From contig JAFSHA010000104.1 of the NCBI GenBank assembly GCA_017440565.1, positions 1 to 49,599 on the forward strand: a stretch of DNA of 49,599 nucleotides, in the 5' to 3' direction. The stretch comes from Eggerthellaceae bacterium (lineage in GTDB: Bacteria; Actinomycetota; Coriobacteriia; Coriobacteriales; Eggerthellaceae). Positions 23,387 to 26,606 of this stretch are shown in pieces (the stretch's first letter is position 1; every line of letters starts with the position of its first letter). The translations under genes and the position numbers were made by a program. The notes beneath the pieces are model-generated. The model saw nothing but the letters and a program-made list of their open reading frames with translations. It had not been told where the DNA came from and made no database searches.

Positions 23387-23463
<77 letters not shown>

Positions 23464-23519: not shown

Positions 23520-23996
23520 ATGCCGAACACCTTCCCCATTCGCATCCTGTTCGTCTGCCACGGCAACATCTGTCGCTCGCCCATGGCCGAATTCGTCATG
23601 AAAGACCTGGTGGCAAAGCGTGGCTTGGCCGATCAGTTCGTCATTGCCTCCGCCGCCACCAGTGCTGAAGAAATAGGAAACGACGTTCATCGGGGTACGA
23701 AGCGCATTCTCGATCGAATGGGTGTTCCTTACGAAACCCGAGCAGCACGCCGCCTTCGCTCAACCGATGCGCAGACATGGGATTACCTCATTGGCATGGA
23801 CGACGCCAACATTCGCAACATGAAGCGCATGCTCGGCGCGCAAGCCGAAGGCCGCATTTTCAAGCTCATGGAGTTCGCGGATTCCTACGAAGACGTTGCC
23901 GACCCCTGGTATACCGGCGATTTCGAGACCACCTACGATGACGTCTTGGCTGGCTGCCGAGGCTTGCTGGCCTCGATAATCCCCTCATCTCGGTAA
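23520..23996 (+). CDS. Low-molecular-weight protein-tyrosine-phosphatase
   Basis: 158 residues. The phosphate-binding loop C-x5-R-S appears at the start as VCHGNICRSPMAEF, and the general-acid loop appears near the end as DPWYTGDF. A normal family member: cytoplasmic, acting on phosphotyrosine or possibly small phosphorylated molecules. I start at ATG 23520 with AAGGAA upstream; the open frame extends back through the tRNA but that is not coding. Only four bases separate it from the methyltransferase, so the three genes phosphatase, methyltransferase and elp3 form one operon. A functional link to tRNA modification is not evident. Confidence 0.92.
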   Translation: MPNTFPIRILFVCHGNICRSPMAEFVMKDLVAKRGLADQFVIASAATSAEEIGNDVHRGTKRILDRMGVPYETRAARRLRSTDAQTWDYLIGMDDANIRNMKRMLGAQAEGRIFKLMEFADSYEDVADPWYTGDFETTYDDVLAGCRGLLASIIPSSR

Positions 23997-24000
23997 CCCC

Positions 24001-24798
24001 ATGGACAAGGCAACCGTCCTTTTCCTCAACCGAATCAACGCCAACTTTTACCAGCAGGTAAGCACCTCCTTCTCGGAAACCCGCGCAAATCCCTGGGAGG
24101 GATGGAAGAAGGCGATGGACGAAATCGAAGCGTTCGAGCCCGACTTCATTCCGCATACGGTCATAGATTTTGCCTGCGGCAACCTGCGCTTCGAAAAGTT
24201 TTTGCTCGATCGCATTGAGCATCAAAACCTCATGAGCTTTCATACGCTCGACAATTGCACTGATCTTGTAAGCCTGGGATCTCAAAAGGTAAGCCACCAT
24301 AACGTGGATATAGTTGCAAAATTGGCTGACGGCACGCTTCCAGGCCTCCTGAAGAAGCTTCCCGAAGCCGAGCTTACGGTCTCATTCGGCTTCTTCCACC
24401 ACGTCCCATCGTTTAAGCTTCGAAAAGAATTGCTCGCGCATAGTATCGATGCCACAAAGGCCCAAGGCTATATCGTTATTTCGCTGTGGCAGTTCATGGG
24501 CAACGAAAAGCTTGCAGCAAAGGCCCTCGACTCCACAAGAACAGCCCTCCCCCATCTTGTCGAACAAGGCCTTAGCCTTTCTCAATTTGAAGAGAACGAT
24601 TGGTTTTTAGGCTGGCAGGAAAGCGGGGCACTGCGCTATTGCCACCACTTCGTCGACGAAGAAGTACATGCGCTTGTCGATTCGGTGAGCCATCTGGCAA
24701 TGCTTATTGCCGATTTCAAGGCCGACGGAAAAGACGGCACACTCAACCGCTATCTGATCTTGCGCAAACTCCCCGAAAGCAAGGTGACAAGCGCATGA
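24001..24798 (+). CDS. Trm9/ALKBH8-like SAM-dependent tRNA methyltransferase (predicted)
   Basis: 265-residue class I methyltransferase. The region before the SAM site, FYQQVSTSFSETRANPW (16-32), resembles the opening of Trm9/ALKBH8-type enzymes (FY..FA..FS.TR..PW). Motif I is VIDFACGN (54-61). Near the C-terminus, WFLGW (201-205) and RYCHHF (212-217) followed by an acidic EEV resemble the family's RYYHxF...EL signature. Trm9 and ALKBH8 methylate the carboxymethyl group on wobble uridine (cm5U to mcm5U). The stop overlaps the elp3 start as ATGA, indicating coupled translation with the enzyme that makes the carboxymethyl substrate. The motif comparison is from memory, so substrate specificity is inference; another RNA or small-molecule substrate is possible. 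Confidence 0.72.
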   Translation: MDKATVLFLNRINANFYQQVSTSFSETRANPWEGWKKAMDEIEAFEPDFIPHTVIDFACGNLRFEKFLLDRIEHQNLMSFHTLDNCTDLVSLGSQKVSHHNVDIVAKLADGTLPGLLKKLPEAELTVSFGFFHHVPSFKLRKELLAHSIDATKAQGYIVISLWQFMGNEKLAAKALDSTRTALPHLVEQGLSLSQFEENDWFLGWQESGALRYCHHFVDEEVHALVDSVSHLAMLIADFKADGKDGTLNRYLILRKLPESKVTSA

Positions 24799-26606
24799 GA
24801 GAGCTTATCGAGGAAATAATCGCAATCCTGCGATCTCGCGGCGCCTTAGAGCCTGTCGAACTGGCGGGGCTCATCCGTCGGCACAACCGCGACATCCACG
24901 TTGTCACTGACCATCTGTCAAAAAAGAAGGCCATGCAGGCCTACCTTGCCGAAAAGCGCGCCAACACCCCGCTTTGGCAGTCTTGGAACGTCGACCATGA
25001 CCTCGACCTGCTCATGCAGAAAACCCTTCAGGTGAAGCCGCGTCGCACCGCATCAGGCGTGGCCACCATCACCGTCATCACCAAACCGATGCCTTGCTCG
25101 GGCACGTGCCTGTTCTGCCCTAATGACGTGCGCATGCCAAAGAGCTACCTCACCGACGAACCCGCCTGCCAACGTGCGGAGCGCAACTACTTTGACCCGT
25201 ACTTGCAGGTTGCCTCTCGCATGAAGGCACTGCGCGAGATGGGGCACGAAACCGACAAGATCGAACTTATCGTGCTTGGTGGTACCTGGGATGACTACCC
25301 GCAGGAATACCAGATCTGGTTTGCCACAGAGCTTTTCCGCGCCCTCAACGACGAAGGCGGCAATATCGAAGCGCTTACCGAGCGTCGCGCGCGCTACGCC
25401 CATTGCGGGATAGCAAGCGATCCCAACATATTAAAGGCGCAGGTCGCCGGGGTGCAACAGTCGGTCTTCTGCGGTGCATTGAGCTACAACGAGGCACATC
25501 GCCGGCTTTACGGTCCCGGTAGCGCCTGGGAACAAGCAGGGTTATGGCAAACCGCCACCCTTGAAGAACTCGAGGCCGAGCAACGCAAAAACGAGAGCGC
25601 AAGGCATCGCGTTGTCGGCCTGGTTGTGGAAACGCGGCCCGACGCGATAAGCGCAGAGAGTCTTTCCGCCATGCGCAAGCTGGGATGCACCAAGGTTCAA
25701 ATGGGAATCCAGACGCTCGACAAAAGCGTCATGGCGGCAAACGGACGCTCCATAGAGGTAGAAGTTATCAAACGATCCTTTGCCCTGCTTCGCCTTTTCG
25801 GCTTCAAGATTCACGTGCACTTCATGCTCAACCTTTACGGCTCAAACCCTGAAGCAGACGTCGCCGATTATCTTACCCTTGTGAATGACCTCGCTTTCCT
25901 GCCCGACGAAATCAAGCTCTACCCCTGCGTGATGGTCGAGGGTACGGGTCTTTCACGCCTTTACGAACAAGGCCTATGGGCTCCCTACGACGAGGAAGCT
26001 CTCGTGAATACACTCGCCAAAGATGTTGAGAATACTCCGCCCTATATGCGCATCTCTCGCATGATTCGGGATATCTCCGCTCACGACATAAAGGCTGGAA
26101 ACCGTAAGACGAACCTTCGACAAATGGTTGAGCAGGTGCCTCTTGCAAAACCACTTAAGGACTGCGAGATTCGTATGAGGGAGATAAGCGTCGAAGGCGT
26201 TGATGTCGACAGCCTTGAGCTCAGCGAAATTACGTACGAAACGAGCATTTCGAGTGAACGATTCCTGCAATGGATTACGTCCGAGGGAAGGATTGCTGGG
26301 TTTCTGCGTCTTTCGCTTCCCCATCGGGAAGCCTTCTGCAAGCTTGAAGGGTTACCCGTTTCCGCTGGTGAGGCCATGATTCGTGAAGTGCATGTCTATG
26401 GTCGCGTCGCTCGCCTTGCTGATACTGGCATGGGGGCGCAGCACCTGGGTCTTGGTAGAAAGATAGTAAAGCGAGCTTGCGAGATTGCGTCAAACGAAGG
26501 CTACGGCCGCATAAACGTCATCAGCTCGGTCGGCACACGAAATTACTACCGCAAGCTGGGATTTCAAGACGCCGGCCTCTACCAAGTTCGCAGCCTTGAG
26601 GCGTAA
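24795..26606 (+). CDS. elp3: Elp3-type radical SAM/GNAT tRNA uridine-34 carboxymethyl synthase
   Basis: 603 residues, the full Elp3 architecture. An N-terminal tRNA-binding segment (1-85) precedes a radical SAM domain with Cys101-x3-Cys105-x2-Cys108 (MPCSGTCLFCPND). The Elp3-specific continuation is PKSYLTDEP...ERNYFDPYLQ. LGGTWDDYP, VVGLVVETRPD and KVQMGIQTLD follow. The GNAT domain (about 440-600) shows IREVHVYG, GAQHLGLGRKIV and GTRNYYRKLGF. Elp3 uses acetyl-CoA and SAM to place a carboxymethyl group on wobble U34. Bacterial and archaeal Elp3 works without the Elongator partners, and none are here. Most bacteria use MnmE/MnmG at this position instead, so its presence is notable. The start overlaps the methyltransferase stop. 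It ends ten bases before the convergent permease gene, with no terminator between them. Confidence 0.93.
   Translation: MRELIEEIIAILRSRGALEPVELAGLIRRHNRDIHVVTDHLSKKKAMQAYLAEKRANTPLWQSWNVDHDLDLLMQKTLQVKPRRTASGVATITVITKPMPCSGTCLFCPNDVRMPKSYLTDEPACQRAERNYFDPYLQVASRMKALREMGHETDKIELIVLGGTWDDYPQEYQIWFATELFRALNDEGGNIEALTERRARYAHCGIASDPNILKAQVAGVQQSVFCGALSYNEAHRRLYGPGSAWEQAGLWQTATLEELEAEQRKNESARHRVVGLVVETRPDAISAESLSAMRKLGCTKVQMGIQTLDKSVMAANGRSIEVEVIKRSFALLRLFGFKIHVHFMLNLYGSNPEADVADYLTLVNDLAFLPDEIKLYPCVMVEGTGLSRLYEQGLWAPYDEEALVNTLAKDVENTPPYMRISRMIRDISAHDIKAGNRKTNLRQMVEQVPLAKPLKDCEIRMREISVEGVDVDSLELSEITYETSISSERFLQWITSEGRIAGFLRLSLPHREAFCKLEGLPVSAGEAMIREVHVYGRVARLADTGMGAQHLGLGRKIVKRACEIASNEGYGRINVISSVGTRNYYRKLGFQDAGLYQVRSLEA

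Follow-up and report, generated by a model that had tools for sequence, protein, structure and literature searches.

A Trm9-like methyltransferase gene paired with elp3 in Coriobacteriia and Patescibacteria: a likely bacterial pathway for mcm5U34 in place of MnmE/MnmG

The window analysed here, that is, the whole stretch of 49,599 nucleotides from an Eggerthellaceae bacterium, carries a class I SAM methyltransferase gene overlapping elp3, and the two genes likely constitute a bacterial mcm5U34 pathway that replaces MnmE/MnmG. The identities of both genes, the conservation and coupling of the pair, the Trm9-type residues of the methyltransferase, the absence of MnmE and MnmG, the lack of any Trm112 above the cut-off and the presence of MnmA were shown. 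What each enzyme does, in which order and on which tRNAs was inferred, without biochemical or mass-spectrometric data.

Organization of the locus

The methyltransferase ORF, located on the plus strand, reads MDKATVLFLNRINANFYQQVSTSFSETRANPW...VIDFACGN...FGFFHHVPS...LRYCHHFVDEEV (Table 1). The preliminary description had reported a methyltransferase with a set of quoted motifs and an overlap between its stop and the elp3 ATG, and all of this held: the motifs are present, the downstream gene was confirmed by TIGR01211, and the TGA of the methyltransferase (24796–24798) and the ATG of elp3 (24795–24797) are shared as ATGA. This overlap probably couples the translation of the two genes, which is an inference from sequence alone. 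Only 4 bases lie between the phosphatase gene and the methyltransferase start, thus the phosphatase, the methyltransferase and elp3 may belong to one transcript. A tRNA-Pro (GGG) gene was found at 23387–23463, just 5′ of this run, and the plasmid search gave no match.

Table 1. Features of the phosphatase–methyltransferase–elp3 region, in window coordinates
Feature	Position	Strand	Basis
Low-molecular-weight phosphatase gene, immediately upstream of the methyltransferase	23520-23996		PF01451
Class I SAM methyltransferase, likely Trm9-like (P0001), 265 aa	24001..24798	+	ORF and translation
FSETRANPW, N-terminal; R28 aligns with Trm9 R29	24070..24096	+	Alignment with 5cm2
H133-H134, aligned to the Trm9 HH containing H115	24397..24402	+	Alignment
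RYCHHF, corresponding to Trm9 RYYHLY (R241, Y243; R212, C214 in P0001)	24634..24651	+	Alignment via bridging relatives
N249, just ahead of the final strand; putative counterpart of Trm9 N271	24745..24747	+	Invariance and inference
ATGA overlap of methyltransferase stop and elp3 start	24795..24798	+	Sequence
Elp3 (P0002), radical SAM and acetyltransferase, 603 aa	24795..26606	+	TIGR01211
Radical-SAM CxxxCxxC (CSGTCLFC) of Elp3	25095..25118	+	Sequence
Elp3 insert, ~70 aa	25353..25565	+	Alignment

The Elp3 protein

The second ORF was identified as Elp3 with 409.6 bits against the TIGR01211 cut-off of 350, and its closest PDB match was the Dehalococcoides Elp3 (5l7j, E = 7e-83). The 4Fe-4S cysteines C101, C105, and C108 and the motifs ETRPD, IKLYPC, and QHLGLG are all there; of the 37 Elp3 rows in the alignment, 36 keep the CxxxCxxC and one has a gap. 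Mapping by motif matched E279, K374, and Y376 to E207, K302, and Y304 of Min Elp3; mutants of these three residues in the archaeal enzyme lost their activity or had it strongly lowered (PMC13315578). The window Elp3 fulfilled the criteria of radical SAM plus KAT architecture with the CxxxCxxC, ETRPD, and KxY residues.

The aligned Coriobacteriia Elp3 proteins, that of the window among them, share an insert (about 70 aa or longer) that the Dehalococcoides Elp3 lacks, as do nearly all of the Patescibacteria Elp3 sequences aligned. It sits between two radical-SAM segments, carries a recurrent Y/F-N-x-A...LY motif, and might serve as a contact site for the methyltransferase. Separately, of the CxCxxC linker, for which a zinc-binding role has been proposed in bacterial and archaeal Elp3, only one Cys (KDCEIRMRE) is left in the window protein (26160–26190); eukaryotic Elp3 is reported to lack this site as well.

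Family assignment of the methyltransferase

Searched as a single sequence, P0001 gave no family at a meaningful score in Pfam and NCBIfam, and phmmer against the PDB returned only noise, therefore profiles were required. Relatives of P0001 were detected in 173 of 298 Coriobacteriia genomes, and 28 of them, about 40% identical to P0001, formed the Coriobacteriia family alignment and profile. When 177,635 PDB sequences were searched with this profile, the top match was Yarrowia Trm9 (5cm2_Z, E = 1e-5), followed by a CmoA-type U34 methyltransferase (3.4e-4). The profile of more distant bacterial relatives, referred to as bridging relatives, also found 5cm2_Z first (E = 1.9e-20), as did the joint profile of both sets (E = 4e-27), where Trm9 scored 98 bits and the next match 75, a lead of 23 bits. 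The alignments of the bridging and joint profiles to 5cm2 span the C-terminal PW...RYYH region, which most other matches do not reach, and hhalign joined the Coriobacteriia family to the bridging family at 99.8% (E = 9e-28). On its own, the Coriobacteriia family matches Trm9 only modestly, and the strength of the assignment depends on the bridging relatives. A C-terminal-only profile was dropped as too short.

Most relatives matched PF13649 and PF08241, some gave weak matches to generic small-molecule methyltransferase families, and both the class I SAM fold and the cofactor motif I (D-x-A/G-CGN) are present in the P0001 family. The AlphaFold model of P0001 is a confident class I methyltransferase fold (pLDDT 93.5). 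In the comparison of this model with solved structures, 5cm2 ranked only 26th by Foldseek and fell outside the 50 rows returned by VIA; many class I methyltransferases equalled or outscored Trm9, protein and tRNA m3C methyltransferases ranking high among them. The fold therefore cannot separate Trm9 from other class I methyltransferases.

These structural ranks, together with the versatility of class I methyltransferases, leave room for a different target, such as a protein (for example Elp3 itself) or another RNA site, in which case the methyltransferase would be a regulator or helper of Elp3. We consider this unlikely, since the profiles favour Trm9 above all solved sequences and the Trm9-type motifs are invariant at both ends of the protein. 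Based on the profiles of the relatives, the Trm9-type residues, and the coupling to Elp3, the P0001 family is in all likelihood Trm9-like, its activity being inferred.

Trm9-type residues

The consensus of the 28 aligned relatives contains FY, F-x-x-TR-x-x-x-W-x-GW, HH, R[YF]CH, and a C-terminal Asn. F16, Y17, F24, T27, R28, W32, H133, H134, R212, C214, H215, E221, and N249 are invariant in all 28, and at about 40% identity such invariance indicates that the motifs are not random. In yeast Trm9, the substitutions R29A, H115A, R241A, Y243A, and N271A impaired tRNA affinity and activity (PMC5372719). Four of these five positions (R29, H115, R241, and N271) correspond to the invariant R28, H133/H134, R212, and N249, while the fifth, Y243, is replaced by Cys214 in every Coriobacteriia sequence of the alignment. 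The equivalence of N249 and N271 is inferred, because the 5cm2 alignment ends just short of N249; this Asn was kept in 28/28, 6/6, and 17/18 sequences of three aligned sets.

The replacement of Y243 also counts in favour of a second alternative, according to which the enzyme acts after Elp3 but methylates another atom of the wobble nucleotide (e.g., the 2′-O of U34) or makes a different cm5U derivative, thus its product would not be mcm5U. The near-obligate coupling to Elp3 is compatible with this, as it shows a shared pathway and not the chemistry. Against it, the top profile match, Trm9, is a carboxyl methyltransferase, and of the five residues with a reported role in cm5U34-tRNA binding four are retained, one of them by inference. 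Methylation of the cm5U carboxylate remains our preferred reading, and the other-atom alternative seems improbable.

Coupling of the methyltransferase and Elp3

Cross-tabulation of the searches in the 298 Coriobacteriia genomes found both proteins in 173, Elp3 only in two, neither in 123, and the methyltransferase only in none; that is, Elp3 was present in 173 of the 173 methyltransferase-positive genomes. In the two Elp3-only genomes, the contig stops not far from elp3, and the sequence around it yielded no fragment of the methyltransferase. The gene distance could be counted in 133 genomes with both positions listed, and in 128 of them the genes are at most 5 kb apart, where the chance model, which disregards shared ancestry as do all chance figures for the coupling, predicts less than one. 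The genes are divergent in 122 of the 128, convergent in one, and co-directional in five (four methyltransferase-then-elp3, one elp3-then-methyltransferase), therefore the co-directional ATGA overlap of the window is an exception. The presence of the pair varies within families f1, f2, f4, f7, and f13 and within genera g12 and g46, suggesting repeated joint loss or gain.

A phylum-wide search revealed six more distant methyltransferase homologues in other Actinomycetota; Elp3 is present at four of these loci, and the other two sequences stop near the methyltransferase gene. The scan of named genomes with distant homologues gave 33 loci, mostly from Patescibacteria, plus Candidatus Subteraquimicrobium. 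Elp3 accompanies the methyltransferase at 28 of them, generally in divergent orientation and a few hundred bases away. Of the five loci without Elp3, four begin at a contig edge, whereas L075 simply shows none. The pair is thus conserved beyond Coriobacteriia, in Patescibacteria and other Actinomycetota.

These data bear on a third alternative, that an unrelated small-molecule methyltransferase is a chance neighbour of elp3. In favour of it, the single protein has no curated family match and small-molecule families matched some relatives weakly. It is nevertheless highly improbable, as the methyltransferase occurs without Elp3 in 0 of 298 genomes and the linkage is tight in two distant bacterial groups despite the shifting gene order. 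Two further proposals of the preliminary description were likewise upheld: that the methyltransferase is a Trm9-type partner of Elp3, which a best match to a small-molecule family would have refuted (the top profile match was Trm9), and that the neighbourhood should be conserved in relatives, which held in Coriobacteriia and also in Patescibacteria and other Actinomycetota.

Wobble uridine pathway in the source genome and its relatives

In the source genome, which is 95% complete, the MnmG profile remained below the cut-off with a working positive control. MnmE was also below the cut-off, with GTPase-domain matches only, its positive control likewise working. The sub-cut-off MnmE and MnmG matches were dismissed as GTPase-domain and FAD/NAD-domain relatives. 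MnmA, on the other hand, is present with 265.7 bits (cut-off 236.95). Across the class, MnmG exceeded the cut-off in one of the 298 genomes (G071) and was absent from 297; the single MnmG, at G071:C8:4785-6713, possibly represents assembly contamination or transfer. None of the 27 genomes carrying distant relatives had MnmG above the cut-off, the completeness of these genomes not being given. As a separate observation, both Elp3 and the methyltransferase are missing from 123 of the 298 class genomes, and many Coriobacteriia thus lack these two along with MnmG, which leaves any modification of their wobble uridine without an explanation.

No Trm112 (PF03966) was found above the cut-off in the source genome; this partner belongs to the characterised enzyme, and homology to Trm9 does not depend on it. 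The Trm112 matches listed across the class fall inside ORFs of 141–1082 aa, a size range that points to zinc ribbons of other proteins. A 77-aa frame (L041) with a weak Trm112 score was rejected, as it does not read as Trm112. It is possible that a diverged or unrelated activator takes the place of Trm112.

The initial proposal had left undecided whether the pair acts in place of or beside MnmE/MnmG and had suggested a check for a Trm112 homologue. Only the former option held, because MnmE and MnmG are both missing, and no Trm112 was found. Its central claim, that two proteins build mcm5U34, was supported at the sequence level, the product being inferred.

Proposed pathway

In the proposed pathway, Elp3 alone, without other Elongator subunits, would use SAM and acetyl-CoA to place a carboxymethyl group on C5 of U34 (cm5U34). 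The Trm9-like methyltransferase, without Trm112, would then transfer a SAM methyl group to the cm5U carboxylate, yielding mcm5U34. With MnmA acting as well, the Lys, Glu, and Gln tRNAs would carry mcm5s2U34, and the pair would substitute for the missing MnmE/MnmG. The first step was established in vitro for archaeal Elp3 (PMC13315578), while homology, active-site residues, and the coupling are the grounds on which the second is inferred. Besides the modest direct profile match, the undiscriminating fold, and the lack of biochemical data, the replacement of Y243 by Cys, the failure to find Trm112, the partner of the characterised Trm9, and the two Elp3-only genomes speak against the mcm5U34 reading. 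A bolder reading, a widespread two-protein mcm5U34 pathway in Coriobacteriia and Patescibacteria replacing MnmE/MnmG without Trm112 or Elongator scaffolds, is also probable, but to a slightly lesser degree than the main one.

If the proposal is true, mcm5U would no longer be a eukaryotic signature, a Trm9 working without its activator would exist, and two published statements would be overturned: one lists mcm5U as a nucleoside typical of Eukarya (PMC2584109), and the other, in a 2017 review of Trm112 partners, holds that genes resembling the Trm112-dependent methyltransferases could not be detected in bacteria (PMC5372719). It would also account for the many Coriobacteriia and ultrasmall Patescibacteria living without MnmE/MnmG, show what the orphan bacterial Elp3 enzymes ultimately produce, and provide a two-protein model for a pathway that involves Elongator and ALKBH8 in humans.

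Comparison with known systems

The closest counterpart is the eukaryotic Trm9-Trm112 complex or the methyltransferase domain of ALKBH8, which converts cm5U to mcm5U downstream of Elp3; Trm9 was the top structure match, and TRxxPW, HH, RYxH, and, by inference, the C-terminal Asn are shared. The bacterial enzyme differs in that no Trm112 was found in the genome, in its Cys for Tyr243, and in its direct pairing with elp3, and the bacterial Elp3 lacks the other Elongator subunits. The MnmE/MnmG (and MnmC) pathway of bacteria forms xnm5U34 on C5 of U34 in the same class of tRNAs and also combines with MnmA thiolation; however, its enzymes are unrelated, its side chain is different, and it is missing from these genomes. 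CmoA, CmoB, and CmoM (cmo5U34) are also class I methyltransferases acting on U34, and CmoA was among the next PDB matches of the Coriobacteriia profile, but the scores were lower and theirs is a known pathway without Elp3. The stand-alone Elp3 of Dehalococcoides mccartyi (PDB 5l7j) belongs to the same enzyme family and was described alone, whereas the window Elp3 has the extra insert of ~70 aa and an incomplete CxCxxC linker.

In archaea, Elp3 and Trm9 were predicted in 2008 (Haloferax; clustered in Sulfolobus solfataricus) (PMC2584109). This prediction is similar in that Elp3 occurs without the rest of Elongator, accompanied by a Trm9 homologue, clustered with it once, and a mcm5s2U-like product was expected, but it was made by homology and for archaea only, where Trm112 orthologues are common. 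No report of a bacterial Trm9 was found in the literature searched, the coverage of which was partial (most subscription papers and bioRxiv were outside it). Considering this together with the archaeal and eukaryotic precedents, the new part is the Trm9-type enzyme in bacteria, apparently Trm112-free and tied directly to elp3.
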